Shown piece after piece: positions 1 through 64,000 of a DNA stretch of 64,000 bases. This DNA is from Shewanella phaeophyticola (GTDB lineage Bacteria > Pseudomonadota > Gammaproteobacteria > Enterobacterales > Shewanellaceae). Both the position numbers and the translations under genes were made by a program. Position 1 is the stretch's first letter. Each line of letters starts with the position of its first letter. Under the pieces are notes generated by a model. That model was not told where the DNA came from. It made no database searches and worked only from the letters and a program-made list of their open reading frames with translations. The stretch covers positions 1,054,001-1,118,000 of the forward strand of contig NZ_JAODOQ010000001.1 of the NCBI RefSeq assembly GCF_025398315.1, read 5' to 3'.

Positions 1-763
1 CCCGCTTGATGTTCACAGCCGAGTTTAATATGCGGTGAAGCTTGACGGTTAATCACATTAGCAAAGTGAGCCAAAGCTTGATCGAGTTGCTCCACCATTA
101 AGTGAGTTGCCCCTTTTTGAGGGCCAAAAATAGCGCTAGCCCCTCGAGGTCACATAATGGATTATCGACATCGCAAGCGACTTCAATTATACATTCACTG
201 ATGTAAGGATGAAGTAAATCAAGGTCGATATTATGCAGTGTTGCTAATGCCGCACCACCCAAAGCAATGTTGTGGCCATTCACATCAGTGAGCTTAGCCC
301 CAAGTGCTTGTATCATACCAGCGCCAGCGTCATTGGTGGCACTGCCACCAAGGCCTAAAATGATATGTTTGATACCATTGTTAAGTGCATCTGCTATTAA
401 CTCACCCACACCATAGCTGGTGGTCAACAGAGGGTTACGTTGAGTTGTTGAGACTAAATGAAGCCCTGATGCCGCAGCCATTTCAATTACGGCTGTGCGG
501 CGGCTATTTGCATCTGCCAGTCCAAGAATGCCGTAAAATGCTTCAACAGGTTCGCCTAATGGGCCTGTGACTTGGCATTCTACAATTTGTCCACCTGTGG
601 CATCAACCATTGCTTGCACTGTGCCTTCACCACCATCGGCCATGGGCACTTTGCAATATTCTATATTAGGGAAAACCTGTTTAAATCCCTGTTCAATGGC
701 GTTAGCAACCTCAAGTGCACTAAGGCTTTCTTTAAACGAGTCTGGTGCAATAACGATTTTCAT
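1..763 (-). CDS. glxK: Glycerate kinase (3' end outside window; one frameshift)
   Basis: Phosphorylates glycerate to phosphoglycerate, a cytosolic step feeding glycolysis. The N-terminus ([16 protein letters not shown]) and the segment around [15 protein letters not shown] are the hallmark motifs of the GarK/GlxK family, which is usually about 380 residues. The first frame stops at position 98, but the conserved reading continues in another frame to the window edge ([18 protein letters not shown]..., then [15 protein letters not shown]). Only one base is missing, near 148-152, inside the expected Gly-Pro codons (GGNCC). The gene is therefore probably intact in the cell and is cut here by the window edge. 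It lies 18 bases downstream of a GntP-type permease on the same strand, which suggests a glycerate utilisation operon. The exact paralogue name is uncertain. Confidence 0.88.
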
Positions 764-781
764 AATAGTCTCTATTAAGGG

Positions 782-2139
782 TTACAGTAAAAATAAGCTG
801 AGGATGTACACAACTATCATTGCGGTGACACCCTGGACTAAGGTTGCTGCAGTTTGTGCGCGATAAGCTTGTTTAACGCTCATGCGGCTAAATTGGGTCA
901 CAACCCAAAAGAAGCTGTCATTGGCGTGTGATACTGTCATTGCGCCAGCCCCAATCGCCATCACGGTCAGTACGCGACCCATTTCAGAATTTAGGCCAAT
1001 ATCACCGAGTAATGGTGCAACTAATGCTGAGGTTGCAACCAGTGCCACGGTTGAAGAACCCTGAGCTGACTTTAACGCACTGGCAACAATGAATGGCATA
1101 AATATACCCACACCTAATGCCGATAAGCTGCTACCTAAAAATGCGCCAATTTCAGTGGCTTTTAACACCGAACCAAATGCACCACCGGCACCGGTGATCA
1201 GTAAAATTGGTGCTGCAACGACAAGCCCCTGGCTGATACGTTCACTAAACTCGGCAATTTTTTTATCGCTTTTTAAAAGTGATAGCGACAATAGCAAACC
1301 AATCATTAAAGCGTTAACCGGTTGGCCTAAAAATACCAATACTGAGAATATACCTTCTTCGCCAAGTGGTTTAGAAGGGAAGTTGGCTATCGACCCTAGG
1401 CAAATAAGTAAAATTGGTACAAAAATAGGGGCAAATGCTTTGGTTGGACTTGGTAGTTTACCGTAAGCGTTTTTAAGGTCATCGAGTTGATCAAGTTGTT
1501 GATTTAACTCTTCTGCGCCTTCACCATCTGGTTCTTCATTTTTAAATCGGTTTGCCCATAACATGCCAGCAAATGCGGCGATTGCAGCAACAAATACACC
1601 CACTGCAATGACTAAACCTAACTGTGACTCTAGGCCTAAGTTACCCGCGGCGGCAATGGGCCTGGTGTTGGCGGTACAAAAGTATGGGTTGCATACAGGC
1701 CAGTCGCTAACGCAACACTCATTGCCACGTTAGACACTTTCATGCGGCTGGCCATTGATTGTTTGAGCGAGTTTAAAATCACAAAACCAGAGTCACAGAA
1801 TACCGGAATAGACACCAGGTAGCCGATGATCGACATGGTTAACGTTGGAAAGCGTTGACCAAACAGTTTGATCACCACTTCTGCCATTGTGATCGCCGCG
1901 CCGCTTTTTTCTAAAATGGTGCCAATGATTGTCCCCAAGACAATCACTAAACCAATATAGCCTAAAATACCGCCAAAACCACCGGTGATGGTTTTCGCGA
2001 TTTCTTGACTAGGCAAACCATAAGCAAAAGCCGCGATAAACGAGGCTAAGATCAATGTTAAGAAAGGGTGTAGTTTAAACTTAGAGGTGGCGACGACGAT
2101 GAACGCAATTACGCCAAGTAGAATTAGTATTAGTCCCAT
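782..2139 (-). CDS. GntP-family permease, probably glycerate/sugar-acid:H+ symporter (one frameshift)
   Basis: A polytopic inner-membrane transporter of the GntP (gluconate permease) family, with many hydrophobic segments from LILILLGVIAFIVV at the N-terminus to the closing helix ending in VVYILSLFLL. The family motif FCDSGFVIL is present at about residue 113. Reading starts at 2139 and the frame breaks near 1656-1662. One base is missing from the Gly-Pro pair in TPGPIAAAGNLGL, after which the second frame runs to 782. Joined length is about 452 residues, normal for the family. It sits between a glycerate kinase and a CdaR/SdaR-type sugar-acid regulator, so glycerate or a related acid is the likely substrate. 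This is inferred from context, not from sequence. Confidence 0.87.
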
Positions 2140-2639
2140 ATATTACTCGTTATTTATACCAATCACATTAATGCTTTATTGTGCTCTGGTTATCATAAGT
2201 TGTTCAATTTATGTCGGATTAATGTTTAAAGGGTTGGCCTTTAACACTAATGTTCGTCACTCAGAATGCTAAAAGCGTTAGGTTTGGCGAGAAGGTAAAT
2301 CACTTTGTTTACGGCAAAGTGACTCAAGCTAACCACTGCAAGGTATATTGGTTTCCACTAATAAAGAACGTGCCTCTATTGGTAGCGCAATGATGCAGAG
2401 ATTAGACTCACAAAAAGCCAAATATAACGATGCCTCCAAGCCTCCGTATTGATTAACTTAATTTGAATCCCCATTACATGATCAAGTCATTAGTACGGTT
2501 GGTATTATTATTGTTTGAAGGTAGAAAGTACTCAATAATAGTAAATCATTAAGCTTAAATAGCTTTGTTCGTTTGCACCAACTGAGTGGCTATTAGTATT
2601 GATTTGTTGTGCGTTTGCACAAAATTAAGCGTAGGCGAG
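2140..2639. other. 500-base gap between permease and regulator, with a possible coding remnant
   Basis: No complete gene is seen. About 2350-2452 on the plus strand reads as a short open stretch (LVSTNKERASIGSAMMQRLD..., ending at a TGA) with protein-like composition but no start codon or recognisable family; it may be a decayed gene end. The first bases after the permease start (TATACCAATCACATTAAT, about 2154) resemble the outer end of the repeat found at 32557. The gap presumably also contains the permease promoter. Confidence 0.35.
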
Positions 2640-3796
2640 TTATTCAGGCTGATGGATTAATTGACCTAGGTATAAACTGAGTAAGCCATTGAAATTATGT
2701 AAGTCTACATTAGTAATCGATTGTATTTTATCAAGGCGATAGCGCAGGGTGTTACGATGAATAAACAAACTTTTGGCACAAGCCTGTAAATCACCTAAAT
2801 GTTCTAAGTATGCTGCTAAGGTTTTTTGCAGTTGTTGGTTGTTATCAGCTTCGATCAATTTTTGATACGGCACCTGCAAGGGCATTACCACGCCAATGAT
2901 GGCGCAACCCTGAAAGCAGCACTTGTAAGCTGTAGTCTTGATATAAATATTTGCTCTTATTGGGGTGATATTTTTTACCTATGTCGAGTGTTTCTTCTCG
3001 CGGTGCGGTAAGAATATGTAATGCCTAAGTCACCGCTAAAATAATGCCCTAATGAGATATGCAAGCTCAGTTGCATATTAGCCGGTAAACGTTTGAGTAA
3101 TTTATCTATGCGTTGGCTTTCAAGTTCAGGGTCAAATTGTTTACCGTCTAAAAAAGCGGGCTTTAAAATGACAAGCTGGGTTAATGATGTCATGGCGATT
3201 AGGTTATCGCGCATTGGATTTTGCAGTAAATACATCACTTGTTTGAGGGCTTGATTATCTTGCTGAAAAGACGGGTTATTGCTGTCTAATTCGATAATTG
3301 CAGCCACTCTTGGCATCGATAAATCAATGCCTAATTGTAATGCCCATTGTTTTAGCGAGGGGAGTTCTGCTTCGCTGGCCACAATAAACTGCGAGATAAA
3401 CTCTTCTTTTTGTCGGTTTTGCCATTGGAGTTGTTCTTGAAGGTTTGCTTGTTCAACAATCATTTCGGCGGTCATTTTTAGTAACTCACCATAATGACTC
3501 AAGCTTTCTGGCTCACCTGTTATGCCTATCACGCCAACCACTTGCCCTTGATAATGTAACGGCAAATTAAGCCCAGGTTTAACGCCGTGCAGTGTTGAGG
3601 CTATGGCTTGACTAATTTCGACATTACGATTTTGACTGATGGCTAATAAAGCACCTTCATGAATGGAGCCAATTCGATGTTTTTCACCTGAACCAAGGAT
3701 CACAGCTTGAGCGTTCATGACATTGATATTGTGGCCGATTATTTTCATGGTTCGGTCGACAATCTTGTTCGCAATATCCGTGTCTATTTGAAGCAT
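2640..3796 (-). CDS. cdaR: CdaR/SdaR-family sugar-diacid/glycerate regulator (two frameshifts)
   Basis: Transcriptional activator of sugar-acid or glycerate genes. The N-terminal half (about residues 5-130) is the putative sugar-acid recognition domain, with the motif NLPLHYQGQVVGVIGITG. The C-terminal end carries the PucR-type helix-turn-helix SLFIHRNTLRYRLDKI. The reading is broken twice. Near 2990 an extra A appears to sit in an A-run (SYRTARRTLDIG expected, as in E. coli CdaR). Near 2869-2874 GGCACC appears where GGACC is expected (ALAGPYQKL). Joined length is about 385 residues, the normal size. It lies next to the permease and kinase, its probable targets. The start at 3796 (MLQIDTDIANKIVDRTMKIIG) matches the family. 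Confidence 0.87.
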
Positions 3797-4156: not shown

Positions 4157-4196
4157 AATAACCGAAGTAGTACGCGATTACGCATTATTTTTTCTT

Positions 4197-4220: not shown

Positions 4221-4232
4221 AAGATGCAGCGA

Positions 4233-6332: not shown

Positions 6333-7320
6333 TTAGCGCTGCAATAACTTGCCAGATGGATGGTTAGAACCATGCACTTGGCTATGACAGTTTAAGCAGC
6401 TTCGGCCACCGGTAAATGCATTGTCATTAACCGAAGAACCCATGCTGGTATTGCCTAAATAAGCACTGCTTGTATGACCGTCGCCTGAGTGACATTGCTG
6501 ACATAATTGAGGAGCACGAGTTTTTAGCATTGCATCGTTTACTGAACCATGAGGATTATGGCAATTAACGCAATTCTCGGTCACGGGTGCATGCTCCCAC
6601 AGCTTTGGCCACGTTTCTCGGCATGACAGCTATAACAGGTTTCATTGACGGTAGGTTGTACTAGGTCATCATCACTTAAGCTGCCATGTGGATTATGACA
6701 GTCACTACAAGTCATTTGGTTCCATTTCATGGGATGACTGCTGCGCTTGTTCATGTCAGCTTTTTGCTTAGTGTGACAGCTTGTACACACGTCCATCTCA
6801 GTTTGCTTTGATAATACTGGGTCGTGAGACGCATGTACATTATGACAAGAGGCACAGGCAACATCGCCACTGGCATGATGGCTGCTTTCCCATGACATAC
6901 GCTTATCGTCAGTATGACAGCTCATACAAACACTGTTTTGTTTGTCTGCGGCTAGGGTTGAATCAGGCCAAAGGTAATCATTGGCTCTTTACCGCCTCGA
7001 TTATGTGAACCTAATGAGCCATGGCATGCTTCACATTGCAGGCCGGCCATTGGGCTTTTTGATGAGTCGATTGAACCATGAACACCTTTAAAGAGATCCA
7101 TGACTTTTTCTGATTTTTTATGGCACATTAAACAAGAATCTGCGCCTTTAGGGGAATATTTACCTTCAGCAAATTTTTTATCAAGCGTGGCTTCAACTTC
7201 TGCTGGGGTCATTTTTGCGTCCCATTTAGCCGCGTGTACTGGATTTGATAAAAATAAGGCAGATGCCGTAAGGCTAAGTAAGGCAAAGAGTAGAGTATTT
7301 ATTTGATTTGTGGTCTTCAT
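6333..7320 (-). CDS. mtrA: Periplasmic decaheme c-type cytochrome MtrA (two frameshifts)
   Basis: MtrA carries electrons through the MtrB barrel. The start at 7320 gives a clear signal peptide ([17 protein letters not shown]..., cleavage near VHA-AKW). Ten CXXCH haem sites are found when three frames are joined: CLMCH, CEACH, CMSCH, CASCH, CTSCH, CSDCH, CYSCH, CVNCH, CQQCH, CLNCH. The C-terminal text ([18 protein letters not shown]) is very close to my memory of the S. oneidensis protein. One base is missing near 6966-6969 (expected [13 protein letters not shown]) and one near 6607-6610 (expected [11 protein letters not shown]). Both lie in Gly-Pro codons, expected GGNCC. I treat the gene as functional with consensus errors; if the breaks were real, metal respiration would be lost. 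Confidence 0.92.
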
Positions 7321-7417: not shown

Positions 7418-9376
7418 TTAAAATTTAACTTCGGTGTGATTTTCAATGCTTGGTGCGTGGCAGTAGAAACACGTTTCAAGTTGCGCGGCATCATTGGCTT
7501 CTTGGTAACTACCGTTAACAATAGCACCTTGACTAGTTGCATGTTGAGCGATGTCGTCAAAGCCATGGCAAGATGCACAAGTAGCTGTAATCGGTGTGGT
7601 ATATAGACCAGCAGAAGTAGCAAGTGCCCCTTTTAGTTTGAACGCATCAAGGTTGAAGTCGTCATGACATTGAGTACAGTCTTTAATAATGTCTTGTTCG
7701 CCATGCACACTGTGCAGTTTCATTTCAAGCGCGCCTTGGTTGCCGCCTGAAGCGTAAGTGCCGTCAGGAGTATGACAAGTCACACATCCATCAACACCCA
7801 CAGTAACCTCACCGTTTAGTTCACGACCTAGTTGTTCTGTCATGATAAAGCCTGCGTGGTAACCTTTATGTAGCTCGAAGGTTTCACCGTGGCAGCTTTC
7901 ACATGCACTGAAATTAACTGAGTCAATATGGCGGTAGCTCGGAGTATCACCAGATAATGTACCGTGTGCAAGTTCTGCTTTCATGCTGGTGGTGTCAACA
8001 CCGTCTACACAGTCAACAGCTTCGGTACCATCGTTACACATTTCTAGGCCGATAAAGCTAAATGCGGTATCGGTATCACCACTACCAAAAGGCAGTGAGT
8101 CAATGTTGTAAACCAATTTGCCGTCAGTCACGCTAACGTCAGTTTGAAGTTCACCTCCATTAACGAGGTCTTTAGTGATTTTAGCTAATCCACTACCTGG
8201 GCTTGCGTTGTATCCCATAATTGGGAAGTTTGGCTCAACGTTGGTAATAGTTTCGATGCGTTGGATTTTACTGATTAAGCTGCTTGCATCAATGGCTGTG
8301 CCGCTAGAGTCAGTAATGGTAAGCGATAAGGTTGCTGACATGTCGGCATCCGTTGCTTTATTTGCAACAAGTGTTGCATCCATACCGTATAGGTTGATAA
8401 AGCTTTGTTTGTCGCTAAATGCTGAGATGTGTAATGTTTCTGTCCAGCTAGCATTATGACAGGCAACACAGTTTGAGTTATCAGCTTGTTGTGAGTGACC
8501 ATCACCTGCTTCAAAGTCAATCTCAGTATGACAGCTGCTACAGGTTTCCATGGTAGGAATGCGTGACCAGTTTTCCCATTCTGCTAAGTCTTCAGATTCT
8601 ACATGGCAATTAGTACAGTTGTCTTGCACAATGGCATAAGCTGCTTCTGCGCTTTTATCAAGATTGCTACCATACATTTTGGCGTCGTTGTGAACATTGT
8701 GGATCAGGTGGCCAAAGTCGACTTGTACTTTATCTTTTTCGACGGCCATTTCGTTAGTGTGACAACTGAGACAGGTGGTTAAATCGGTATAGCTGTGGTA
8801 AATGCTTTCGCCTTCAGCATGACAGGTATTACATGTGGCATCGCTGACAACGTTTTTAGTGTAAGTTGCGTCATTACCTTCACCGTCAAAGTCTTCGGTG
8901 ATTTCAGCTCTAGGTGACGTGCTGATACCGTCAAGTAAGGTTGAAGCGCTAGAAATAACGTTGTAGCGTTGAGTTAGTTCTGGGTTGAAGTTTTCGACGT
9001 CGATGGTAAAGGTATATTTACCGTTACCTAAATCAGTAAATGCGTCTTGCGAACCAATATATTGCCATTGCGCAGCATTACCTGCACCAGATGCGCCAGC
9101 TGGAATAAGCTGAACCACTTTTTTAACTTCTAATTCTGTGAGACCAGCAATCGGTAAATCACTTTCGTTGGTGGCAAATACCGTTACGGTTGGTTTGCTG
9201 TCCTGATAAGTCACATCGGTAATATCAAGGTTTAATGTTTGGATTGTTTCAGCTGGTTCGCCACCAGGGTTACCTGCGTCGCCATCTTCACCGTCACTAC
9301 CGCTGCCGCAACCTACCAGTGTCATTGATGCTGACATAGCAAGTAATAATGCAATTTTTGTGTGTTTTATATTCAT
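7418..9376 (-). CDS. mtrC: Surface decaheme lipoprotein cytochrome, MtrC
   Basis: Outer-membrane, cell-surface cytochrome that passes electrons from MtrAB to minerals or flavins. From the ATG at 9376 the protein has about 652 residues (MtrC is about 670). It has a lipoprotein signal with lipobox LVGC (Cys23), then a Gly/Asp/Ser-rich linker, two clusters of five CXXCH motifs (ten in total), and between them a C-X8-C pair (CNDGTEAVDC). That pair matches the disulfide known in this family's third domain. Two adjacent ATGs occur at 9379 and 9376; I prefer the second, seven bases after AGGGA. The frame is intact. It lies upstream of mtrA and mtrB on the same strand and is separated from omcA by a terminator, so it probably has its own promoter. 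Confidence 0.9.
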   Translation of the reverse strand: MNIKHTKIALLLAMSASMTLVGCGSGSDGEDGDAGNPGGEPAETIQTLNLDITDVTYQDSKPTVTVFATNESDLPIAGLTELEVKKVVQLIPAGASGAGNAAQWQYIGSQDAFTDLGNGKYTFTIDVENFNPELTQRYNVISSASTLLDGISTSPRAEITEDFDGEGNDATYTKNVVSDATCNTCHAEGESIYHSYTDLTTCLSCHTNEMAVEKDKVQVDFGHLIHNVHNDAKMYGSNLDKSAEAAYAIVQDNCTNCHVESEDLAEWENWSRIPTMETCSSCHTEIDFEAGDGHSQQADNSNCVACHNASWTETLHISAFSDKQSFINLYGMDATLVANKATDADMSATLSLTITDSSGTAIDASSLISKIQRIETITNVEPNFPIMGYNASPGSGLAKITKDLVNGGELQTDVSVTDGKLVYNIDSLPFGSGDTDTAFSFIGLEMCNDGTEAVDCVDGVDTTSMKAELAHGTLSGDTPSYRHIDSVNFSACESCHGETFELHKGYHAGFIMTEQLGRELNGEVTVGVDGCVTCHTPDGTYASGGNQGALEMKLHSVHGEQDIIKDCTQCHDDFNLDAFKLKGALATSAGLYTTPITATCASCHGFDDIAQHATSQGAIVNGSYQEANDAAQLETCFYCHAPSIENHTEVKF

Positions 9377-12164: not shown

Positions 12165-12275
12165 GGTGACCCTAGGATTCCCCCGCAATGATAACTTGTG
12201 AACTCGGCCAGGCTCGGAAGGGAGCAACCGCAGCAAGCGACTCGTGTGCCGGGGTGTCGGCTCTAGGGGAACCTC
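12165..12275 (+). ncRNA. ffs: 4.5S signal recognition particle RNA
   Basis: The scaffold RNA of the bacterial SRP, which binds Ffh and delivers ribosomes making membrane proteins to FtsY. The Ffh-binding hairpin is clear: the invariant CGGAAGGGAGCAACC stretch lies at about 12214-12228, flanked by pairing arms, and the 3' arm contains the conserved CGTGTGCCGGGGTGT. The apical loop should read AGGTCCGGAAGG, as in all close relatives, but here it reads AGGCTCGGAAGG (12210-12221). This changes the symmetric loop and is identical to the change in ppiC at 32424. I read it as a consensus error at GGTCC. The ends are estimated from pairing and are uncertain by about 10 bases. Confidence 0.9.
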
Positions 12276-12791: not shown

Positions 12792-13691
12792 TTATTTGCA
12801 TAACCAAACCTCGTTTGCTGCAATGAGTAATTGACTATGTCGATGAGTTAACTCCGTTTCATTACGACTATAGCCTCCACCAATCACGGCTGCAAGGGGG
12901 ATATCATGGCTTTTAGCAATAGACATCACTTGAGTATCTCTGGCTAAAACGCCCTGGTCAGAAATATTGAAGTAACCTAAATCGTCATCCTGATGGATAT
13001 CTACCCCAGCGTCATAAATAATCAGATCAGGTTGATGCAGTCGAATAAGGTAGGGCAGGATTTGCTGAATATGTTCTAAGTATTCTTGGTCACTGCAGCC
13101 TTTATTTAAATCAATATCATGATCTGAGTCTTGCTTACGCGATGGAAAGTTTTGTGCGCAATGAATAGAGCAACTAATGATATCTGGATACTGTTGAGCC
13201 AACGTGGCAGTGCCATCTCCTTGGTGGACGTCACAGTCAAAGATTAACACTTTATCCGCTCGGCCGCTGTCGATAGCGGTTATAGCGGCAATAATTAAAT
13301 CATTGAAAATACAAAATCCACTACCAAAATCGTAGTGAGCATGGTGATACCCTCCGGTTAAATGCACCGCTATACCATGTTCTAATGCTAATTGAGTGCA
13401 AAGTACTGTGCCATTAACAGCATGAAGGGTGCGATTGACTAGTTGTTCACTCCAGGGAAAGCCAATACGCCGTTGCGCTTTGTGATTTAACGTTCCGCTG
13501 ATAAATCGCTTAACATACTCAGGACAATGAACGTCATGGAGCGTGTCGATGCTAATGGCACTGGGGATATGGCGTGATGCCTCGAACAATAATTGCTGCT
13601 CAATGGCATGTTCATACAGCAGTTGATATTTAGTTGTTGGAAATCGATGAGTGTGAGGTAACGCCAGCTGTGAATAGCTGGCGTGATACAC
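12792..13691 (-). CDS. Histone-deacetylase-family hydrolase
   Basis: A zinc-dependent amidohydrolase of the HDAC/acetoin-utilisation/polyamine deacetylase superfamily, cytosolic, about 300 residues. The catalytic landmarks are present in order: the tandem histidines in GGYHHAHYDFGSG (about residue 127), the metal ligands in DCDVHQGDGTA (about 166), and YDAGVD (about 237) before the closing GGGY. The substrate cannot be told from sequence; bacterial members deacetylate small amines or proteins. The upstream gene is DUF2057, 21 bases away. The start used is a GTG giving the text YHASYSQLALPHTHRFPTTKY. The usual few residues before it (a PLVYH-type opening) do not follow an ATG in frame, so the true start may be slightly further upstream. 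Confidence 0.85.
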   Translation of the reverse strand: MYHASYSQLALPHTHRFPTTKYQLLYEHAIEQQLLFEASRHIPSAISIDTLHDVHCPEYVKRFISGTLNHKAQRRIGFPWSEQLVNRTLHAVNGTVLCTQLALEHGIAVHLTGGYHHAHYDFGSGFCIFNDLIIAAITAIDSGRADKVLIFDCDVHQGDGTATLAQQYPDIISCSIHCAQNFPSRKQDSDHDIDLNKGCSDQEYLEHIQQILPYLIRLHQPDLIIYDAGVDIHQDDDLGYFNISDQGVLARDTQVMSIAKSHDIPLAAVIGGGYSRNETELTHRHSQLLIAANEVWLCK

Positions 13692-13712
13692 TAAAAGGGA
13701 TCGCAGCAGGCA

Positions 13713-14405
13713 TTACAGTTGTTTAATTGCCCAGCCCATAAATTCTTTACGGGTTTTTTCATCTGCTTGTAACCACCAATATTGCAGCATTTGTTCTGCT
13801 TGAGCAGGATTAGCGTTATTGGCAGCAGGTGCCGTGCTTGCTGTTGGCGCTACACTGGTTGCCACGGCAATGTCCGATTTTACTGGTGCCTGGGTAATCA
13901 CTTGCGGAGTATCTGTTGTGGCAGAAACAGATAAGTCTTCAAAATCTTGTTGCTGATTGGTTTTAAACAAATTACTGATGAATGTTTCTTCAGTAAAGTT
14001 AGTGTGTTCAACACTATAAGATACAGACCCATTATCTTTACGGCTAAGCTTTACTTGCGGCTTTTTAGCAAAGGTTTTTGGCTCCTTGATGACATTACCT
14101 TCAGCAGGTTTTAAATTGTATTGATAATCGCCATCTACGGCTAGCGTGACAATAAATGGGGTTGATTTAACAAATGATTGGCTGTCGCTAAATGAGTCAT
14201 CGATGACATCGTGATAACGTATAGCAATTTTATGCGTACCATTGGAGAGTGTTAAATCTGATTGATGCCTAAACATATTTGTTTCAATGGCTTCACCGTC
14301 AAGCGCTAAATATTCGAAAGACATTGGAATAGTTAAATTTGCTGCAAATACAGAAGATGAAGTTAATAATGCTAACAGCGCACTAGTGGTGAATACAGAT
14401 TTCAT
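13713..14405 (-). CDS. DUF2057 (YccT/CsgI-like) secreted protein
   Basis: About 230 residues with a clear signal peptide ([22 protein letters not shown]), so periplasmic. The mature N-terminal half fits DUF2057: [15 protein letters not shown], then [17 protein letters not shown] and a [18 protein letters not shown] core. The family includes E. coli YccT/CsgI, reported to inhibit curli assembly. The middle is a low-complexity Ala/Thr/Pro linker (about residues 165-205), followed by the C-terminal [23 protein letters not shown], seen in Shewanella and Vibrio members. It lies 9 bases downstream of priC on the same strand. The function here is not known. Confidence 0.75.
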
Positions 14406-14414
14406 TGTTGCTCC

Positions 14415-15077
14415 TTAACGAGGGTAACTTTGACGAGGTCGTTCAAATAATTGAATACGCTCTTCAATATAACTAATTGCTTGTTTGCATTTTCCTAAGC
14501 GACGATGCATCAAAAGGATGTCATGTTGCAATTTAATTTTGTCATCACTATGACAGAATTCAAGATTTGCTTCCATTTGTTCAATTTTTTGTTCAAATTT
14601 TTGTGCCCAATTAAGGTGTTTATTGAGCTCAGCATATAATTGATGGCTGTTTTGCATCACATTACTGGCAATCCAACCAAATCCATTATCTTGAGCAGAT
14701 TGCTGTTGTTTTTTAGCATAACGAGCACGATTACTGGCTTTGCGTTGTGCTTCGGCTTTTAAATTGATGTCAGTGGTTAATAGTGCTCTTTTTAAAGCAA
14801 TGAAGCGGTCTTGGATCCTATCACAGCTCAATTGAATGACTTGACCACCGAGTTTAAGTGATAACTGTTTTTCAAGCTTTTGAATATCTTGCCGAAGCTG
14901 GGTAATACATGGGCTTAAAAAGCCACCTTGTTGGGCAAACAGTTGGCTATTAAAACGCTCTATTTGTTGTAATGTTTGTCGATGGTTAGGGGTAAAGTTT
15001 TGGTCATGCGCGAGTGCATCACGTTCAAGTTGCGTGAGTTGCTGCTTTAACATTGAAACCAATTGTTGGGTATTCAT
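14415..15077 (-). CDS. priC: Primosomal replication protein PriC family
   Basis: About 220 residues, matching the PriC family used in replication fork restart: an alpha-helical, Gln- and Lys-rich protein ending in a YIEERIQLFERPRQSYPR-type tail. Helical N-terminal segments (QQLVSMLKQQLTQLERDA) and the central basic patch KASNRARYAKKQQQ support this. The start at 15077 overlaps the stop of the upstream permease gene (ATGA), indicating translational coupling. It shares its strand and region with dinG, another DNA-maintenance gene. PriC proteins are poorly conserved, so the family call is good but not certain. Confidence 0.75.
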   Translation of the reverse strand: MNTQQLVSMLKQQLTQLERDALAHDQNFTPNHRQTLQQIERFNSQLFAQQGGFLSPCITQLRQDIQKLEKQLSLKLGGQVIQLSCDRIQDRFIALKRALLTTDINLKAEAQRKASNRARYAKKQQQSAQDNGFGWIASNVMQNSHQLYAELNKHLNWAQKFEQKIEQMEANLEFCHSDDKIKLQHDILLMHRRLGKCKQAISYIEERIQLFERPRQSYPR

Positions 15078-15847
15078 CCCCAAGCACTCCAAGTTAAGTG
15101 AACCGCAATAGACAATACCATAATAATAAAAATGGGCTTAATGAAAGGGATCCCAAAACGAATGGCGCTTCTGGCGCCAATATAAGAGCCTGCCATCATG
15201 CAAAAACCCATCCACAAACCTAACACCCATTGTACTTGTCCCATAGAGGCAAAAATAATTAACGCGGTGATATTACTCACAGACGTCATTACTCTGGCTA
15301 AACCACAGCTGTATAAAAGAGGCAGCTTATGGAGAGAGACAGAGGTGACGGTCCAAAATGCACCAATACCTGATCCTGCAAAGCCATCATAACTACCAAG
15401 TAACAAGCCTTGGCCGATTTGTTTATGTTTGGGCGAATGCTCAACGGGTAAATTGATATTGCCATCGCCCATGGCCTTAGGGCTCAATAAGGTATAAATG
15501 GCAATAGCAATAATCAATAACGGTAAGAGTTTATCTAACCATTTGGGATCAACCATAAATACCAAGAAACAGCCAGTGATTGAACCGATGAAAGTTGCAA
15601 CAAAGCTGGCTTTCCATAATTTGGGGGTAAAAAGTTGCTGTTTATAAAAAGTGAAGCTTGAAGTGACAGAACCAAAACATGCTGCTAATTTATTGGTGCC
15701 TAAAGCAAGATGAGGCGGGATCCCAACTGTGAGTAACGCGGGAATAGATAATAAACCTCCGCCTCCTACGATGGCATCAATAAAGCCAGCAATGATGCCG
15801 ATGACCGCTAATATAGCCCAGTGGCTAGGGTCTAATAATAAATCCAA
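15074..15847 (-). CDS. TSUP (TauE/SafE, YfcA-like) membrane permease
   Basis: About 257 residues with seven or eight hydrophobic segments. The N-terminal signature GFIDAIVGGGGLLSIPALL and the motif LALGTNKLAA are classic for the TSUP family of sulfite/organosulfonate exporters (YfcA in E. coli). The internal repeat motif reads YDGFAGSGIGAFWT, where relatives have GPG. The GGATC at this point (minus strand, 15372-15376) is what GGACC would become by one C-to-T change, so the Ser may be artefactual. It lies directly downstream of dinG (8 bases) and overlaps priC. The substrate is unknown. Confidence 0.83.
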   Translation of the reverse strand: MDLLLDPSHWAILAVIGIIAGFIDAIVGGGGLLSIPALLTVGIPPHLALGTNKLAACFGSVTSSFTFYKQQLFTPKLWKASFVATFIGSITGCFLVFMVDPKWLDKLLPLLIIAIAIYTLLSPKAMGDGNINLPVEHSPKHKQIGQGLLLGSYDGFAGSGIGAFWTVTSVSLHKLPLLYSCGLARVMTSVSNITALIIFASMGQVQWVLGLWMGFCMMAGSYIGARSAIRFGIPFIKPIFIIMVLSIAVHLTWSAWG

Positions 15848-45931: not shown

Positions 45932-46544
45932 ATGCATAAAGCACCAGAATCAGTACTCAATGCGCTTGTACCTATGGTTGTTGAACAAACAGCGAAAGGT
46001 GAACGTTCTTACGATATCTATTCTCGTTTATTAAAAGAACGTGTTATTTTTTTAGTTGGCCAGGTTGAAGAGCATATGGCTAACCTCATTGTGACTTCAG
46101 TTATTATTCTTAGAGTCAGAAAGCCCAGACAAAGATATCTATCTTTATATCAACTCGCCAGGTGGCTCAGTCACAGCGGGTATGGCTATTTATGACACCA
46201 TGCAATTTATTAAGCCAAACGTCAGTACCGTATGTATTGGCCAAGCGGCAAGTATGGGTGCATTCTTATTAGCTGGCGGCGCAGAAGGAAAGCGTCATTG
46301 CTTACCTAACTCACGTGTGATGATCCACCAACCACTAGGTGGTTTCCAAGGTCAAGCATCAGACATCGCTATTCATGCCCAAGAAATTTTAGGCATTAAA
46401 AATAAGTTAAACCAAATGCTAGCTGAACACACAGGTCAACCGCTTGAAATTGTTGAGCGAGACACAGACCGTGACAACTTCATGAGCGCGTCACAAGCGG
46501 TAGAATACGGCCTCGTGGATTCTGTATTAACGACTCGTAGTTAA
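45932..46544 (+). CDS. clpP: ATP-dependent Clp protease proteolytic subunit (one frameshift)
   Basis: Serine protease chamber that works with ClpX or ClpA. Joined length is about 204 residues. The first part runs from [28 protein letters not shown] to HMANLIV. The second part (readable from [22 protein letters not shown]) contains the catalytic Ser in [15 protein letters not shown] (about residue 110), the catalytic His in [13 protein letters not shown] (about 135) and the Asp in [10 protein letters not shown]. The break is at 46093-46098: GACTTC stands where Ala-Gln codons (GTGGCNCAG) are expected, one base too many. If the codon was GCC this is again a GGNCC site. Probably functional. Confidence 0.94.
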
Positions 46545-48087: not shown

Positions 48088-50442
48088 ATGACCCAAGAGC
48101 GTGAAGCGCATATCGAACTCCCCGTATTACCACTGCGAGATGTGGTGGTTTATCCGCATATGGTAATTCCGCTATTCGTAGGACGGGAAAAATCCATTCG
48201 TTGCCTAGAATCGGCAATGGAACAAGACAAACAAATTTTACTGGTCGCTCAGCGTGATGCTGACTTAGACGAGCCAACCAAGGACGATATTTTTGATATT
48301 GGTACCGTAGCGTCCATTTTGCAGCTATTAAAACTTCCTGACGGCACGGTTAAAGTGCTCGTTGAAGGTGGTCAGCGCGCTAAAATTACTCGCTACACTC
48401 AAGAAGAAGAATTTTTTTCTGCAACTGCCGAATACCTTGAGTCGCAAGAATTAAGCGACAAAGAAGAAGAAGTACTGGTTCGCAGTGCTATCGGTCAGTT
48501 TGAAGGGTATATCAAACTCAATAAGAAAATCCCACCAGAGGTGCTTACTTCATTGTCGGGTATTGATGAAGCCGCACGTTTAGCCGATACCATGGCTGCG
48601 CATATGCCGTTAAAGCTTGAAGACAAGCAATCGGTATTAGAAATGATCAACGTGGGCGAACGTCTAGAATATTTAATGGCGATGATGGAATCGGAAATCG
48701 ACTTATTGCAAGTTGAAAAACGTATCCGTACCCGCGTTAAAAAACAGATGGAAAAAAGCCAGCGCGAATACTATTTGAATGAGCAAATGAAAGCGATTCA
48801 AAAAGAATTAGGCGACATTGACGAAAGCCACGATGAATTTGAAGTACTGGCGCGTAAAATTGAAGAAGCGGGCATGCCAAGCGATGCCAAAGAAAAAGCC
48901 AGTGCTGAATTGAATAAACTTAAAATGATGTCACCGATGTCAGCAGAAGCCACGGTAGTTCGTAGCTATGTAGACTGGATGACATCAGTGCCTTGGAAAC
49001 AACGCTCTAAAATTAAGCGTGACTTAGCCAAAGCGCAAGAAGTGCTCGACACTGACCATCATGGTCTTGAAAAGGTCAAAGAGCGTATTCTTGAGTATTT
49101 AGCAGTACAAAGCCGAGTTAAACAACTTAAAGCTACTCAATTTTGTGCTTAGTGGGACCACCAGGTGTTGGTAAAACCTCGCTGGGTCAATCAATCGCAA
49201 AAGCCACTGGTCGTAAGTATGTGCGTGTTGCATTAGGCGGCGTACGTGATGAAGCAGAAATTCGTGGGCATCGCCGTACTTATATCGGTTCAATGCCGGG
49301 TAAAGTCATCCAAAAGATGTCTAAAGTGGGGGTTAAAAACCCATTATTCTTACTCGATGAAATCGATAAAATGAGTTCTGACATGCGCGGCGACCCATCG
49401 TCGGCATTATTAGAAGTGCTTGACCCAGAGCAAAATGCGACCTTTAACGACCATTACTTAGAAGTCGATTACGATTTATCTGATGTAATGTTCGTGGCCA
49501 CGTCAAACTCAATGGATATTCCATGATTCCTTACTTGATCGTATGGAAGTGATCCGCTTATCGGGATACACCGAAGACGAAAAGCTAAACATCGCTAAGC
49601 AACATTTATTGCCAAAGCAAGTTGAACGCAATGGTCTTAAAGCTAATGAGATCAAGGTCGATGACAGTGCTATTTTAGGCATTATTCGTTATTACACCCG
49701 AGAAGCGGGTGTGCGTTCATTAGAACGTGAACTCTCGAAAATATGCCGTAAAGTGGTTAAGCAAATCTTGTTAGACAAAACCGTTAAAGTGGTTGAGGTC
49801 AATCAAGACAACCTTAAGTCATTCTTAGGTGTGCAGCGTTTTGACTTTGGTAAAGCAGAGTCGAATAACCAAATTGGCCAGGTAACCGGCCTTGCATGGA
49901 CTCAGGTTGGCGGTGATTTATTAACAATCGAAGCCACCTCGGTTGCCGGTAAAGGTAAGTTAACCTATACCGGTTCGCTTGGCGATGTGATGAAAGAGTC
50001 GATTCAAGCTGCGATGACGGTAGTGCGTGCTCGCGCTGACAACTTAGGCATCAATAGCGACTTTTATGAAAAACGTGATATTCACGTGCATGTGCCAGAA
50101 GGGGCGACACCAAAAGATGATCCTTCAGCCGGTGCTGCAATGTGTACTGCGTTAGTATCGAGTTTAACCGGTAATCCTGTGCGCAGTGATGTTGCCATGA
50201 CAGGCGAAATAACCTTGCGTGGTGAAGTACTTCCAATTGGTGGATTAAAAGAAAAATTACTCGCAGCACATCGCGGTGGAATCAAACACGTGTTGATTCC
50301 TAAAGAAAATGAACGCGATTTGGAAGAAATTCCAGCTAATGTGATTGCAGATTTAACCATTCATCCAGTGCGCTGGGTTGATGAAGTCTTGAAACTGGCG
50401 CTCGAACGACCAGTTGAAGGCTTCGAAGTGGTTAAAAAATAG
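48088..50442 (+). CDS. lon: ATP-dependent protease La (Lon), with two frameshifts and one substitution
   Basis: AAA+ protease degrading misfolded and regulatory proteins. About 785 residues when joined. N-terminal substrate domain ([27 protein letters not shown]), Walker [16 protein letters not shown], sensor/Walker [12 protein letters not shown], and the protease part with [21 protein letters not shown], which contains the catalytic Ser, and the Lys in [14 protein letters not shown]. Three Gly-Pro sites are damaged: 49132-49138 (KGPILC expected), 49524-49530 (DIPGPLLDRME expected) and 50119-50123 (KDGPSAG expected, Asp read). The start at 48088 ([14 protein letters not shown]) is family-like. 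Three hits in one gene at the same motif argue for artefact. Confidence 0.95.
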
Positions 50443-53203: not shown

Positions 53204-54111
53204 GTGAGCCATAAACTCGATCAAGCATTTGAAAAAGCACTCGCCTATATCGATTCTAATATTGCAGCGCCATTGAATATTGATACCCTGGCAACGATTG
53301 CAGACCTGCCAGCGTGTCATTTTCAACACTTGTTTTACTCGCTATACCGTTTGTCGATTGAGGAATACGTCGAGTTACTTAAAAGTTTGCAGGCAGCTCA
53401 TCAATTGGGGTTTGGCGAACAAATTTCACTTGAGGCTATCGCGACAAATTTAGGTTATAACAATGAATCAGACTTTGTTGACTCGTTCACCCATAGTATT
53501 GGTCAAAGCCCACAGTCATTCAGGCAAGCGCCCGATTGGAACAATTTCTTTGCCAAACAACAACCGCTTAAATCGTTTGAGTCACCTCAAGATGGAATGC
53601 TCACTGCTGATGTAGAGATAGTGTCAATGGATGCCTTAACGCTGGCTAGTGTTACGCACAATGCACTCTGCCAAGGCAATGCCTAAGACGATCGAGCGCT
53701 TTATTCAATGGCGGCAAAAATACGCAGTGGAAGCCTAACGTTGGTCGAACGTTTAATCTCGTGCACAGTCTGCCACAAGCGCAGCCATATCATATGGATA
53801 TTGGCGTCTCACTTGATGAAGCAACATATTCGAGGTTAGCGTCAACGGGTTTAACACAAGAGGGGATTGATACCAACATTATTGTTGCAGGTCGTTATGC
53901 AAAGCTATCGGTAACAACCGATAAGCAAAATAGCAATATCAATGTGCTGTTGCATGCTGGAGTTGATTACCTTTACCGTATTTGGTTAAACGAGCAGTTA
54001 TATTCATTACGCAATAGCCCATTGATGTTTGAACGCCTTAACGTTGGCCAAGTTGTTGAGCCCGGCACCGAACTGCAACAAGCAGTCGATATCTACTTAC
54101 CTCTGCAATAG
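53204..54111 (+). CDS. AraC-type regulator with GyrI-like effector domain (two frameshifts)
   Basis: About 303 residues when joined. The N-terminal third is an AraC double helix-turn-helix (DTLATIADLPACHFQHLFYSLYRLS and LEAIATNLGYNNESDFVDSFTHSIGQSPQSFR). The rest is a GyrI-like small-molecule-binding domain (ADVEIVSMDALTLASVTHN..., VDIYLPLQ at the end), as in Rob/SoxS-type multidrug regulators. The frame breaks at 53663-53666 (THNGP expected) and 53733-53735 (a Gly-Pro before NVGRTFNLVHS), both at predicted GGNCC. A GTG start at 53204 follows AAGGAAAA. The target genes are unknown. Confidence 0.82.
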
Positions 54112-54173: not shown

Positions 54174-55417
54174 TTATTGATTAATCATGCGCATTAACTC
54201 GGCACAAATCCACACCATGTAATTGGCCCAAGCATAGCCAAACACCGAGAACATCACCGCAACGGGAGCTAAGTGGCGGTTAAACGCCATAGCCACAATT
54301 GGCGATGATGCCGCGCCGCCAATGCAACATTGGCTGCTAATGGCCATATACGCTAATGGCGCTTTTATGATTAATCCTGCAATCAAAATCAGTAATGCGT
54401 GAAAGCCAAGCCAGACAAAGCCAATGGCAAAATAGATTGGAAAGTCATTGATCATGGTTAAGTCCATTTTTAATCCCATGGTGGCGATTAATAGGTATAG
54501 CAATACAGACGAAATTTTCGATGCGCCCTGGCGCTCTAGTCGCCTGACTTTGGTGTAAGACAATATAATACTGACGCTGGTGACAATGATGACAATCCAA
54601 AAAAAGTGCGATGTAAAGCTGAGTTTTTCCGATTGAGGGTAGTGATGACTAAAAAATGGCACCAAGAGATCTGCGCCGAAATGGGCTAAACCGGTAACGC
54701 CAAATGCCACCGCAAAAATCGCCATATAACTCGATAGGGTGGGTATAGGTAACTTAAACTTCGACAATGCTTTATCGCGCAAGTTAATACTTTCAACCAG
54801 CTTGTTTATGCCATTATTATCAGCCTTGAGCTTGCTATCAATAGCATTAGCGTGATTAGCGCAAAAAAGTAAAAATGACATCCAAAGCGCTGAAAATACT
54901 ACGTTCACAGAAATCATGATGGCAAACATATTGTCATCAACAGCATAGACTTCTTTCATGGCCAGTTGATTAGCTGTACCGCCCACCCAGTTACCTGCTA
55001 GCGTTGCCATCGCACGCCAGGCTGCTTCCGCGCCATGCCAGTTTAGCAACTCAGGAGACAGTATTGAAAAAACATACAGTGAAAAATGCCACCTAGAATA
55101 ATCCCAATACTGCCGACAATAAACAGTACAATTATTTTGGAGCCAAGCATTAATATGGACTTAATATCGACGCTAATAATAAGTAAGGTGAGACACGCTG
55201 GCATAATATAGTGCGCGGCAATATTGTTCAGTTGACTTGCTGAGGTATCAACTAGCCCGAAGGTGTTAAACAATGATGGCACCACATAGCATGCCACCAT
55301 GACAGGCATATAACGATAAAAGGTTTGCCAGTAACGATGGGGACTCTCGCTGGTATAAAAAATAAGCCCTAATGTAATGGCAAGTAGGCCTAAAATAACC
55401 GGGTCTTGATTAATCAT
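54174..55417 (-). CDS. DUF819 (YjcL-like) membrane protein (one frameshift)
   Basis: A polytopic inner-membrane protein of about 415 residues. The first part has about five hydrophobic segments from PVILGLLAITLGLIFYTS to IIVLFIVGSIGIILGG. The second part begins readably at FSLYVFSILSPELLNWHG and includes GAEAAWRAMATLAGNWVGGTANQLAMKEVY, the DUF819 signature, and AMAFNRHLAPVAVMFSVFGYAWANYMVW at the end. The break is at about 55086-55090, where GGP is expected. The family has no proven function; YjcL-like proteins resemble transporters. Followed by the LysR gene, 13 bases upstream on the same strand. Confidence 0.8.
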
Positions 55418-57829: not shown

Positions 57830-59592
57830 ATGAAACTAAAATACTTAGTCTCAGCGATGGCGGTGATGATGCTATCTTCTGGTGCTGCAGTGGCGAAGTC
57901 TGACAACTTAGCCTCATTTCATGCCGAAATGGATAGTTGTCAGTCATGTCATACTAAACCGGTAAAAGTGAGCGACAGCGAAACTCATGAAAATGCCCAG
58001 TGTAAATCATGTCATGGTGATTATGCTGAACTCGCAAATGACAAATTACATTTTGATCCACACACATCTCATCTAGGTGATATTAATTGTACGTCTTGTC
58101 ACTCTGGTCACGATAAACCTCAGTTAACCTGTAACAATTGCCACAACTTCGATATGGAAATGCCTTTTGCAGAAACCAAAGCGAAGAAAAAATGGGACGG
58201 TGCTTGGGATCAAGAAAAAATCCAAAAAGCCATTGATAAAGCCACTCTGTAGAAACCGTTGATGTGATTGTTGTCGGTGCGGGTTCTGCTGGTTTTAACG
58301 CTGCTATCTCTGCCAAAATGGCGGGTGCAAAAGTGGTTTTATTTGAAAAAGCCGCATATACAGGTGGTAACTCAATGCTAGCTGCTGGTGGTATTAACGC
58401 CGTGGGTACACCACAGCAGAAGAAAAAAGGCATTGAAGATAAAGTTGAATGGTACTACGAAGATGCGATGAAAGGTGGTCGTTACCAAAATGACCCTAAA
58501 TTAGTCCAAATCTTAGCTGAAGAGTCTGCGGATGCAGTTAAATGGCTTGAGTCATTGGGTGCAAACCTAGATGACTTAAAACGCTCTGGTGGTGCTCGTG
58601 TTGAACGTACTCACCGTCCATCAGGTGGTGCTTCAGTAGGACCACACATCGTTGATACATTACGTAAAGCAGCAAAAGAACGTGATGTTGATGTACGTTT
58701 GAACTCTAGAATTGAAAAAATCGTATTAAATGACGATAAGTCAGTTGCAGGTGTTGTGGTTCACGGTCGTCATTCAGGTTATAACATGGTTGCTGCAGAT
58801 TCTGTCGTATTAGCAACCGGTGGTTACGGCATGAACAAAGAAATGATTGCTTACTACCGTCCAACAATGAAAGACATGACCAGCTCAAACAACGTAACCG
58901 CGACTGGTGACGGTGTATTACTGGCTAAAGAAATTGGTGCGTCAATGACTGATATTGACTGGGTTCAAGCGCATCCTACCATTGGTAAAGACAGCCGTAT
59001 CTTAATCTCTGAAACCGTACGTGGTGTTGGCGCAATCATGGTAAACACTGATGGTGAGCGTTTCATCGATGAATTAACCACTCGTGACCGTGCATCTGAT
59101 GCCATCTTAAAGCAAAAAGATCAATATGCTTGGTTAGTATTTGACGAGCAGCTTGTTGCTAAGAAGAAAATGGTACGTGGTTATGATCACTTAGGCATGC
59201 TAAGTAAAGGTAACACTATCGAAGAGCTAGCTAAAATCACTGGCATGAGCAAATTACCTAAAACTGCAGGTGACTACAATAAGTATCAAGCAGCGGGTAA
59301 AGACGACGCGTTTGGTCGTGACGATATGCCACTTAACTTAACTAAGCCTCCTTTCTACGCTGTAAAAGTCGCTCCTGGTATTCACCATACTATGGGTGGT
59401 GTAGCAGTAGATACTGATGCTAACGTATTAAACCTACAAAGCTGGAAAATGTCTGGTCTATTTGCTGCGGGCGAAGTGACTGGTGGTTTACATGGCTTTA
59501 ACCGCCTAGGTGGTAATGCGATTGCTGACACTGTTGTGTTTGGTCGTATTGCAGGTGAAAATGCTGCTAAGCATGCTTTAGAGAAAAAATAG
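57830..59592 (+). CDS. fccA: Tetraheme flavocytochrome c, fumarate-reductase type (one frameshift)
   Basis: Periplasmic enzyme with four haems and FAD that reduces fumarate (or a related unsaturated acid). About 587 residues when joined. Signal peptide (MKLKYLVSAMAVMMLSSGAAVA-KSD). Haem sites CQSCH, CKSCH, CTSCH and CNNCH. FAD motif VIVVGAGSAGFNAAISAKMAG, then the fumarate reductase active-site text VQAHPTIG, TTRDRASDAIL, IHHTMGGVAVD and FNRLGGNA. The break at about 58246 lies where relatives have AGP between haem and flavin domains: about four bases of a GGNCC site appear lost, giving a TAG. Closer to FccA of S. oneidensis than to Fcc3 by memory. Other flavocytochrome c roles (ifcA, urocanate) cannot be excluded. 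Confidence 0.9.
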
Positions 59593-59825: not shown

Positions 59826-59855
59826 CGCTAATGAGATGCTAATTCTAATTAAACG

Positions 59856-61058: not shown

Positions 61059-61163
61059 ATTTTGGTTTCTTCCTTTAACATTGGCTCTAGGATAATTAGT
61101 TCGACGACTAAATGGCACTGATTTTTGCAAAAAACAGGGCAAAACCGCAGTGGTTGGAGCAGT

Positions 61164-61949: not shown

Positions 61950-62937
61950 CTTCTTGCTCACTTTGATAAGGGAAATGGCAGGCAAAATAGCGATCTTTTA
62001 TGTGTTCAAGATGTGGCTGTTTTACACACTTACGTTGTGCTTCTGGGCAGCGTGCATCGAGACGACATCCTGCAGGTAAGTGCTGCATCGACGGTGACGA
62101 CCCTTGCAATGTGGGTAAATCGGCTTTGTGGCGCATTTTTTGGGTGTGATCGGGTAAGTTTTTCAATAATGCTCGGGTGTAAGGATGAAAAGGTTGCTCG
62201 GCCATCGCAGCAGCAGTGCCCGACTCCATTACCTGGCCGCTGTATAGAATGGTTAGGTTATCACACCAATTCACCATAATTTCAAGTTCGTGACTCACCA
62301 GTAATATCGACACATTTTGCAATTGATTTAATTGTGACAACAACCTAAAAATTTGTGCTTGAGTGTTCAATTCCATTGAGTTTGTTGGTTCGTCAGCTAT
62401 TAACAGTTTTGGATGGTTAGCCACCGCCATAGCGATCATGACTTTTTGGCATTCGCCTTCAGAAAGCTCCCACGGGTAACACTTCATCAATTTTTTAGGG
62501 GTTTTAATGCCCACTTTATGTAACCATTTTTGAGCATTTAAATAAGTATCGCGGTTACGTCGCCAAAAGGGCACGTTCTTATTAGGCATCATGGCTTCAA
62601 TAAGTTGGCTGCCAATGGTTTTAACTGGATCTAAACTGCCTGAAGGGTCTTGAAATATCATCGCCATGTCGCAGCCCATTAAACAACGTCGTTCTTTGGC
62701 TGTCATTTCAAGTAAATTACGGCCGTCCCACATCATTCGGTCTGCAAAAATGTGCCAATTATGGCCAAGTACGCCTAAAATAGCTTTTGCAAATAAGCTA
62801 CGCCCCGAGCCAGACTCACCAAGCAAGCCATGAATTTCACCTGGGTTGATGGTTAAACTGACTTTTTCGAGTACTTTGACTCTACCCTGTGGGGTATCAA
62901 GTTCGATGGTAAGGTTACGCACGTCGAGTAATGGCAT
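61930..62937 (-). CDS. sapD: Peptide ABC transporter ATPase SapD (Walker A Lys replaced by Arg)
   Basis: Second Sap ATPase, about 335 residues. The Walker A reads GLLGESGSGRSLFAKAIL (about 34), with Arg in the place of the usual catalytic Lys (E. coli SapD has GSGKS, from memory). The ABC signature is SEGECQKVMIAMAVA, Walker B LLIADEPTNSME, and the oligopeptide-type C-terminus is GCRLDARCPEAQRKC. There, relatives read GPRCP; GATGC on the minus strand at about 62053-62057 may be an altered GGTCC. The frame is intact. It follows sapC by two bases. Confidence 0.9.
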   Translation of the reverse strand: MPLLDVRNLTIELDTPQGRVKVLEKVSLTINPGEIHGLLGESGSGRSLFAKAILGVLGHNWHIFADRMMWDGRNLLEMTAKERRCLMGCDMAMIFQDPSGSLDPVKTIGSQLIEAMMPNKNVPFWRRNRDTYLNAQKWLHKVGIKTPKKLMKCYPWELSEGECQKVMIAMAVANHPKLLIADEPTNSMELNTQAQIFRLLSQLNQLQNVSILLVSHELEIMVNWCDNLTILYSGQVMESGTAAAMAEQPFHPYTRALLKNLPDHTQKMRHKADLPTLQGSSPSMQHLPAGCRLDARCPEAQRKCVKQPHLEHIKDRYFACHFPYQSEQEDDDAIA

Positions 62938-62939
62938 AG

Positions 62940-63830
62940 TTAATTTCTTATTGGCGCAAGAGCTGAGCGTAAACCGTCGCCGACTAAATTTACCGACAAC
63001 ACCGTAAATAAAATGGCCACTCCAGGTATGGTCACCGTCCAGGGCGCAAGTAATAAATTATCCAGCCCTTGTGCCACCATGGCACCCCATTCAGGGCTTG
63101 GCGCCTGAGCGCCTAAATTTAAAAAACCCAGTGCAGCAATGTCGAGAATAGCGGCCGAGATTGCCATTGTGACCTGAATAATCACTACATCCCAAACGTT
63201 AGGCATAATGACATACAAAAAAATCTGGAACGAATTGGCACCGTCTAATTTAGCCGCGGTAACGTATTCTTTTTGTAACTCTTCGTGAACCGCTTGATGA
63301 ATGGCGCGCACAAATTGTGGGACCATTGCAATACCTACACCCCAAAATACATTGTTCAGCCCCGGTCCCATGACCGCTACCACTAAAATGGCCATCAATA
63401 ATGAAGGGATAGAAAGTAGAGCATCAAGTAAGTGGCTTAATACACTCGACTTTATGCCGCGCATCATGCCTGATAGAGAACCAATGATAAACCCAAAAAA
63501 TAACGATACCGCAACTATCAGTAATGACATGCCAAAGGTCAGTTGCACGCCATGCAAGATACGGCTAAAAATATCACGGCCTAAATCATCGGTACCCAAA
63601 AAGTGCTCAACACTGCCTGCGGGATCCCAAGATGGGGGTAAAAGCAAGACTTGTTGGTCTTGTGCTTCTGCGGAGTAAGGGGCAATAAGCGGTGCAAAAA
63701 TGGTTAATACTAATAAAAAAATCACTGCCCATAAGCCAATCACCGCAAATGGATTTGCCGAGAAGCTGTTCCATAAGCGCCACATTGGCGATTCGATATG
63801 GTCTTCGTGGTAGATTTTAATGCGCGGCAT
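62940..63830 (-). CDS. sapC: Peptide ABC transporter permease SapC
   Basis: Inner-membrane permease subunit, about 296 residues with about six hydrophobic segments. It has the DppC-type signature FLGTDDLGRDIFSRILHGVQLTFGMSLLIV (about 80) and the EAA loop EYVTAAKLDGANSFQIFLYVIMPN (about 188). The family-typical ending SVNLVGDGLRSALAPIRN is present. It overlaps the end of sapB by about 14 bases and is two bases from sapD, giving a tight operon. One intact GGACC lies here (63362-63368 region, MGPGLNN), an exception to the damage pattern. Confidence 0.93.
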   Translation of the reverse strand: MPRIKIYHEDHIESPMWRLWNSFSANPFAVIGLWAVIFLLVLTIFAPLIAPYSAEAQDQQVLLLPPSWDPAGSVEHFLGTDDLGRDIFSRILHGVQLTFGMSLLIVAVSLFFGFIIGSLSGMMRGIKSSVLSHLLDALLSIPSLLMAILVVAVMGPGLNNVFWGVGIAMVPQFVRAIHQAVHEELQKEYVTAAKLDGANSFQIFLYVIMPNVWDVVIIQVTMAISAAILDIAALGFLNLGAQAPSPEWGAMVAQGLDNLLLAPWTVTIPGVAILFTVLSVNLVGDGLRSALAPIRN

Positions 63831-64000
63831 ATAAGTCCTTTCTACTTATCGGATTGATTATAGTGTGCATTAAGTCAATTAAAATGCTCAAAAAGATAAT
63901 CAATAACGATACAGATAAGATACCTGCTTGAATCACAGTATAGTCGCGCTGATAAATACCTGACACTAACCAGCTGCCGACACCGAGCCATGAAAAAATC
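63817..64000 (-). CDS. sapB: Peptide ABC transporter permease SapB, C-terminal end only
   Basis: The last 60 residues of a membrane permease, reading FSWLGVGSWLVSGIYQRDYTVIQ..., then a final hydrophobic helix (GILSVSLLIIFLSILIDLMHTIINP) and stop at 63817-63819, overlapping sapC. Position and the closing helix fit SapB; the rest lies beyond the window. Confidence 0.85.
   Translation of the reverse strand, partial: IFSWLGVGSWLVSGIYQRDYTVIQAGILSVSLLIIFLSILIDLMHTIINPISRKDLYAAH

Follow-up and report, generated by a model that had tools for sequence, protein, structure and literature searches.

Why should gene after gene in one stretch of a bacterial chromosome appear broken at the same five bases? 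The stretch, hereafter the window, comprises 64,000 nucleotides of Shewanella phaeophyticola (positions 1,054,001-1,118,000 of the main contig; the 4.79-Mb genome is in three contigs, with an estimated completeness of 90.97% and contamination of 3.61%). A preliminary description, made from the letters of the window, had listed 23 damaged positions and attributed them to consensus error at a methylated GGWCC motif (GGACC or GGTCC), predicting an AvaII/Sau96I-like methyltransferase in the strain. Our analysis supports that mechanism and changes the motif to GGNCC. We conclude, with a probability of roughly 95%, that consensus error, probably from nanopore sequencing, at GGN(5mC)C (5mC, 5-methylcytosine) accounts for the breaks; the 5mC mark, its position, and the sequencing platform are the parts of this reading that we infer.

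Occurrences of GGNCC were compared with expectations from a Markov model, the window expectation being the sum of four values. The window contains 10 GGNCC against 45.8 expected, comprising six GGWCC (at 15350, 49155, 52195, 58639, 63320, and 63364, where the preliminary description had counted four) and four GGSCC (GGCCC or GGGCC). The genome-wide scarcity that follows from the original proposal was borne out when it was checked: in 16 stretches of 20 kb (320 kb) sampled over the 4.76-Mb main contig, there were 59 GGNCC against 291.8 expected, a ratio of 0.20, with individual stretches ranging from 0.07 to 0.34. Both small contigs are also poor in the motif (1 against 3.6 expected and 2 against 10.6). 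In the genome sample, GGCCC/GGGCC (0.14) and GGACC/GGTCC (0.31) are the lowest of all 5-mer pairs, and the next pair stands at 0.68.

A genome could truly be without GGNCC if its own endonucleases selected against the sites, and the genome-wide depletion and the presence of a GGNCC-type restriction-modification system, described below, are both in keeping with such restriction avoidance. Relatives offer a comparison, with those carrying an Eco47II-type nuclease gene being imperfect controls as to assembly platform and methylase specificity: ratios in 100 kb of each are 0.78 in G087, 0.67 in G040, and 0.95 in G089, and relatives lacking the gene show 0.86 (G068, 80 kb), 0.92 (G025, 100 kb), and 0.94 (G049, 100 kb). 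Two carriers are thus below the noncarriers; the third is not, and no carrier approaches the 0.20 found here. Because carriers stand at 0.95, 0.78, and 0.67 against 0.20, avoidance alone explains little, and we regard it as highly improbable. G040 (loci L121-L125), whose Eco47II-type nuclease is more distant and adjoins a methylase gene, has GGACC/GGTCC at 0.45 of expectation, which could be real GGWCC avoidance in that genome.

We then compared the window site by site with G068, which among 96 other genomes of the genus is the closest at cysS-folD (90%) and which aligns with the window in three collinear blocks of 91.9-93.5% identity. G068 has 57 GGNCC sites in the aligned region, and only six are unchanged in the window. 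Another 15 contain an indel, and the remaining 36 carry substitutions, accompanied in two cases by an adjacent insertion. Over all 5-mers, 72% are retained on average, and CCNGG is retained at 58 of 105 sites. In the reverse direction, 6 of the 10 window GGNCC are identical in G068. The 23 positions of the preliminary description (15 indels, five substitutions, and three weaker candidates) had been picked by Gly-Pro codons, and chance placement is therefore the wrong model for them; all 23 lie at most 5 bases from a G068 GGNCC site that reads differently in the window. In G068, 9 of these 23 sites are GGWCC and 14 are GGSCC, and the motif is therefore GGNCC. GGWCC as the motif was ruled out, GGWCC (3 of 23 kept) and GGSCC (3 of 34 kept) being equally damaged. 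A Dcm-type CCWGG motif was also ruled out, with 45 of 80 sites kept and two indels. The affected features are listed below, with strand assigned only for ffs.

1 to 64000, window-wide GGNCC loss, 10 left against about 46 expected, with 51 of 57 G068 sites altered
148 to 152, glycerate kinase gene, frame-breaking indel in a GGNCC site
1659 to 1663, GntP-family permease gene, frame-breaking indel in a GGNCC site
2869 to 2874, cdaR-type regulator gene, frame-breaking indel in a GGNCC site
6607 to 6611, DmsE-family (mtrA-like) decaheme cytochrome gene, frame-breaking indel in a GGNCC site
6966 to 6970, same cytochrome gene, second GGNCC site, frame-breaking indel
12172 to 12269, plus strand, signal recognition particle (SRP) RNA gene ffs (Rfam RF00169), GGNCC sites altered at 12176 and 12211
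15372 to 15376, TSUP-type permease gene (name from the preliminary description), nonsynonymous substitution in a GGNCC site
22925 to 22931, TonB-dependent receptor gene, substitution in a GGNCC site with an insertion beside it
28465 to 28469, tonB-like gene, frame-breaking indel in a GGNCC site
32424 to 32428, ppiC-like gene (name likewise taken over), nonsynonymous substitution in a GGNCC site
41810 to 41814, cysS, GGNCC site substituted
42563 to 42568, cysS near the gene end, frame-breaking indel in a GGNCC site
42744 to 42749, folD near the gene end, frame-breaking indel in a GGNCC site
46093 to 46098, clpP, frame-breaking indel in a GGNCC site
47034 to 47038, clpX, nonsynonymous substitution in a GGNCC site that we take to lie within the ATP-binding loop
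49132 to 49138, lon, frame-breaking indel in a GGNCC site
49524 to 49530, lon, second GGNCC site, substituted, with an insertion beside it
50119 to 50123, lon, third GGNCC site, substituted
53663 to 53668, AraC/GyrI-like regulator gene, frame-breaking indel in a GGNCC site
53730 to 53735, same regulator gene, second GGNCC site, frame-breaking indel
55087 to 55091, DUF819 gene, frame-breaking indel in a GGNCC site
58241 to 58247, flavocytochrome c gene, frame-breaking indel in a GGNCC site
62054 to 62058, sapD-like ABC transporter gene (name likewise taken over), GGNCC site substituted

The direction of change was checked at four sites in 29 relatives including G068, the other 53 being compared with G068 alone. 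Each of the two cysS sites (41810 and 42563) reads GGNCC, with any middle base, in 27 of the 29 relatives, and the folD site (42744) does so in all 27 relatives whose loci reach it (the other two end earlier); the window has GGNCC at none of the three.

Indels are concentrated at the motif: of 63,595 aligned bases, the 505 around GGNCC account for 17 of 94 events (binomial p = 2e-18). Taking reading frames from 61 G068 open reading frames (ORFs) of at least 80 codons, overlaps removed by length, we found that all 16 coding indels near GGNCC change the frame. Elsewhere there are 33 coding indels, seven of them multiples of three and 26 frame-changing; when the latter were read by eye, 15 fell into compensating groups, 10 lay near the ends of genes or within a single short ORF of doubtful status, and one was a clear break (at about 2997, in the cdaR-type gene, where G068 has no GGNCC). 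Substitutions show the same indifference to coding at the motif. The 61 substituted bases in GGNCC include 24 synonymous, 34 nonsynonymous, and three noncoding changes, against 3,011 synonymous, 924 nonsynonymous, 22 stops, and 463 noncoding elsewhere; counting stops as nonsynonymous, the nonsynonymous to synonymous ratio is 34:24 at GGNCC and 946:3,011 off it (Fisher p = 2e-8). Avoidance would proceed by synonymous or neutral changes, whereas those observed are mostly nonsynonymous or frame-breaking.

The same figures bear on the possibility that the lineage is degenerating and its genes are truly decaying. Many frames are broken, and the mean ORF in our stretches is 300 amino acids, compared with 334-385 in five sampled relatives, as decay would have it. 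Decay, however, would not keep to one pentanucleotide, and off the motif 76% of coding substitutions (3,011 of 3,957) are synonymous; the genes are therefore under ordinary constraint, and decay as the cause is barely credible.

The substitution spectrum raised the question of whether the changes are real mutations, produced in this lineage by frequent deamination of methylated inner cytosines to T. The commonest substitutions (36 of 61) are inner-cytosine transitions, counted on either strand, which a misread inner 5mC would also give. Deamination yields no indels, however, yet 15 of the 57 sites have them, and in lon, clpX, cysS, and 16S rRNA selection would act against such mutations. A small contribution of deamination is possible; as the general explanation it is very improbable.

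Eight 16S rRNA genes were found in the genome. One copy each from G064, G025, and G044 shows the same ten GGNCC sites, of which two overlap. In our eight copies, only 37 of the 80 site copies survive; no copy retains one of the sites, and three sites are altered in seven of eight. At several sites the alterations differ from copy to copy, which speaks against avoidance. Among our copies, 51 alignment columns vary, 17 at GGNCC and 34 elsewhere; of the off-motif columns, 27 come from a single copy (L057) and three are lengths of G runs, as would be expected from nanopore homopolymer errors. Copy L057 differs from the others in compact blocks, at about columns 383-493 and 1004-1046, as in natural variation between copies. 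Three copies each from G064, G025, and G044 were identical within their genomes. In G049, where three of seven copies were compared (L067, L071, and L075), 12 columns differ, three of them by missing G's, hinting at consensus errors there too.

The predicted methyltransferase has a counterpart in this genome, in the form of one cytosine-5 methylase gene accompanied by Eco47II-type and TdeIII-type nuclease genes. A search with PF00145 returned a single gene, at about C1:95,647-96,918 (423 amino acids, E = 5e-87). Its translation, read by eye, contains the catalytic Pro-Cys and ENV motifs, which mark a cytosine-5 methylase domain. The gene row at G000:C1:94757-98143 (L001) consists of a TdeIII-like nuclease, the methylase, an Eco47II-like nuclease, and a MazG-like gene; one flank of the methylase is occupied by an RE_Eco47II gene (PF09553, E = 2e-46) followed by the MazG-like gene, and the opposite flank by an RE_TdeIII gene (PF09520, E = 2e-23), a family that presumably cuts GGNCC. 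On the basis of PMC10305163, the Eco47II family is taken to have that target as well. PADLOC assigned both nucleases to REase_II, the TdeIII-like one weakly, and NCBIfam gave no match for either. The methylase and Eco47II-like frames are open. The TdeIII-like frame is interrupted close to its start, at a run of seven T (L001, about 500); the cause could be a homopolymer error or a true break. The 3,978-base methylase locus at present contains zero GGNCC. For N6/N4-type methylases there was one weak match, below cut-off, in an own-genome search limited to PF00145 and PF01555. Around the locus lie integrase ORFs (L036:2162-2899, 7476-8213, 13288-13905, and 14359-15264; transposase-type and one phage-type), and they suggest a mobile origin.

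Concentration on one motif, genome-wide spread, blindness to coding, and a matching methylase were all found, which agrees with modification-induced consensus error. In the mechanism that we propose, the cytosine-5 methylase of a type II restriction-modification locus would protect the chromosome, most likely by placing a methyl group on the inner cytosine of GGNCC in each strand. The assembly was probably built from native nanopore long reads with a basecaller and polisher untrained on this mark, such that GGN(5mC)C would be systematically miscalled as C-to-T, as the mirror G-to-A, or as a one- or two-base indel, and the errors would enter the consensus.

Errors of this type have been described. 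In one Klebsiella genome, about 70% of the consensus errors of the Oxford Nanopore basecallers of the time were in Dcm motifs (PMC6591954); in low-quality Listeria assemblies, errors at a pentanucleotide motif were linked to modification (PMC10687267); and in Neisseria nanopore data, misreads of G/C as A/T occurred mainly at 5mC, and 74.76% of erroneous indels fell on a methylated site or on the base next to one (PMC12506013). Given these motif-specific errors, the kind of artefact is already known, and the present case resembles it in its short motif tied to modification, its G/C-to-A/T changes and indels, and its dependence on strain. It differs in that the motif is GGNCC and in that we infer the case from an assembled sequence and a methylase gene; this is the first of several points that weigh against our interpretation. 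The papers just cited treat other motifs and species. The GGNCC specificity of the methylase would follow from the families of the neighboring nucleases and from the error motif itself. Sites that read intact (6 of the 57 window sites and 37 of the 80 16S site copies, among them every one of the 16 copies of two GGACC sites) require a context effect, and a tally of the bases flanking intact sites gave no clear rule. Finally, judging from the aligned relatives, part of the 51 losses is ordinary divergence, as at 43151, where 1 of 27 covering relatives has GGNCC and G068 is the odd one.

The locus itself is a variation on known GGNCC systems (Eco47II, TdeIII, and Sau96I). It shares with them a cytosine-5 methylase adjoining RE_Eco47II and RE_TdeIII genes; unlike them, one methylase stands here between two unrelated nuclease genes, with a MazG-like gene after. 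GGNCC has been assigned, as a prediction, to a methylase with an Eco47II homologue, with nanopore scores for GGNCC barely over cut-off (PMC10305163), and a GGNCC 5mC methylase is reported to protect from Sau96I (PMC9465063). About 75 residues precede the methylase domain here, resembling the bifunctional methylase M.SsoII, whose residues 1-55 regulate transcription according to PMC6100179; M.SsoII, however, methylates CCNGG, and a regulatory role here would be by analogy only. The literature searched held nothing joining Eco47II with TdeIII, nothing on TdeIII, and nothing joining Shewanella, nanopore, and GGNCC, which says nothing beyond that literature. Pairing a single methylase with two nucleases adds modestly to the known kind of error.

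Within the genus, an Eco47II-type gene occurs in 4 of 97 genomes, our own included, and in G087 and G089 it adjoins a PF00145 methylase gene, and in G040 a methylase gene. A wider scan, with one genome per species, gave 40 loci with relatives of the methylase. With our own proteins as queries, a TdeIII-like relative was found in five of the 40 and an Eco47II-like relative in 20 (21 with two further Eco47II queries); both nucleases together, around the methylase, were found only in Vibrio fluminensis (L076), many of the 40 loci being cut by contig ends. The same V. fluminensis contig also carries a 680-amino acid ORF (L077:2006-4048) that fuses cytosine-5 methylase and Eco47II nuclease domains, separate from the methylase flanked by both nuclease types. 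The order MazG, Eco47II, methylase, TdeIII is shared with two Vibrio plasmids (L144 and L145). On plasmid pIFL1_4 of Vibrio campbellii there is no annotated gene at the methylase, and the methylase match is in two pieces. We considered this plasmid as a second case of damage, with 11 GGNCC against 29.9 expected, and it was not supported: of 16 alignable GGNCC sites of plasmid p1-ED002, nine are intact and seven substituted, with no indel inside a site.

MazG-Eco47II-methylase-TdeIII may be a mobile defence cassette, with a single GGNCC methylase protecting its host against two endonucleases that are unrelated but share a target, a proposal to which we give slightly less than even odds. If it holds, a phage able to block one nuclease would still face the other, and loss of the methylase would be punished twice.

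For the organism, the genes named here as broken are probably intact in the living cell, as we read the evidence. Extrapolating from the 16 sampled stretches and from the ratios found in three relatives, about 2,900-3,200 sites of the genome would be wrong. False pseudogenes and false 16S variants would result, the completeness estimate (90.97%) is probably lowered, and the assembly would mislead uses in taxonomy, pangenome analysis, and tests of selection. The errors in an assembly can also be enough, even without reads, to suggest which motif the strain methylates and to pair that motif with a methylase gene.

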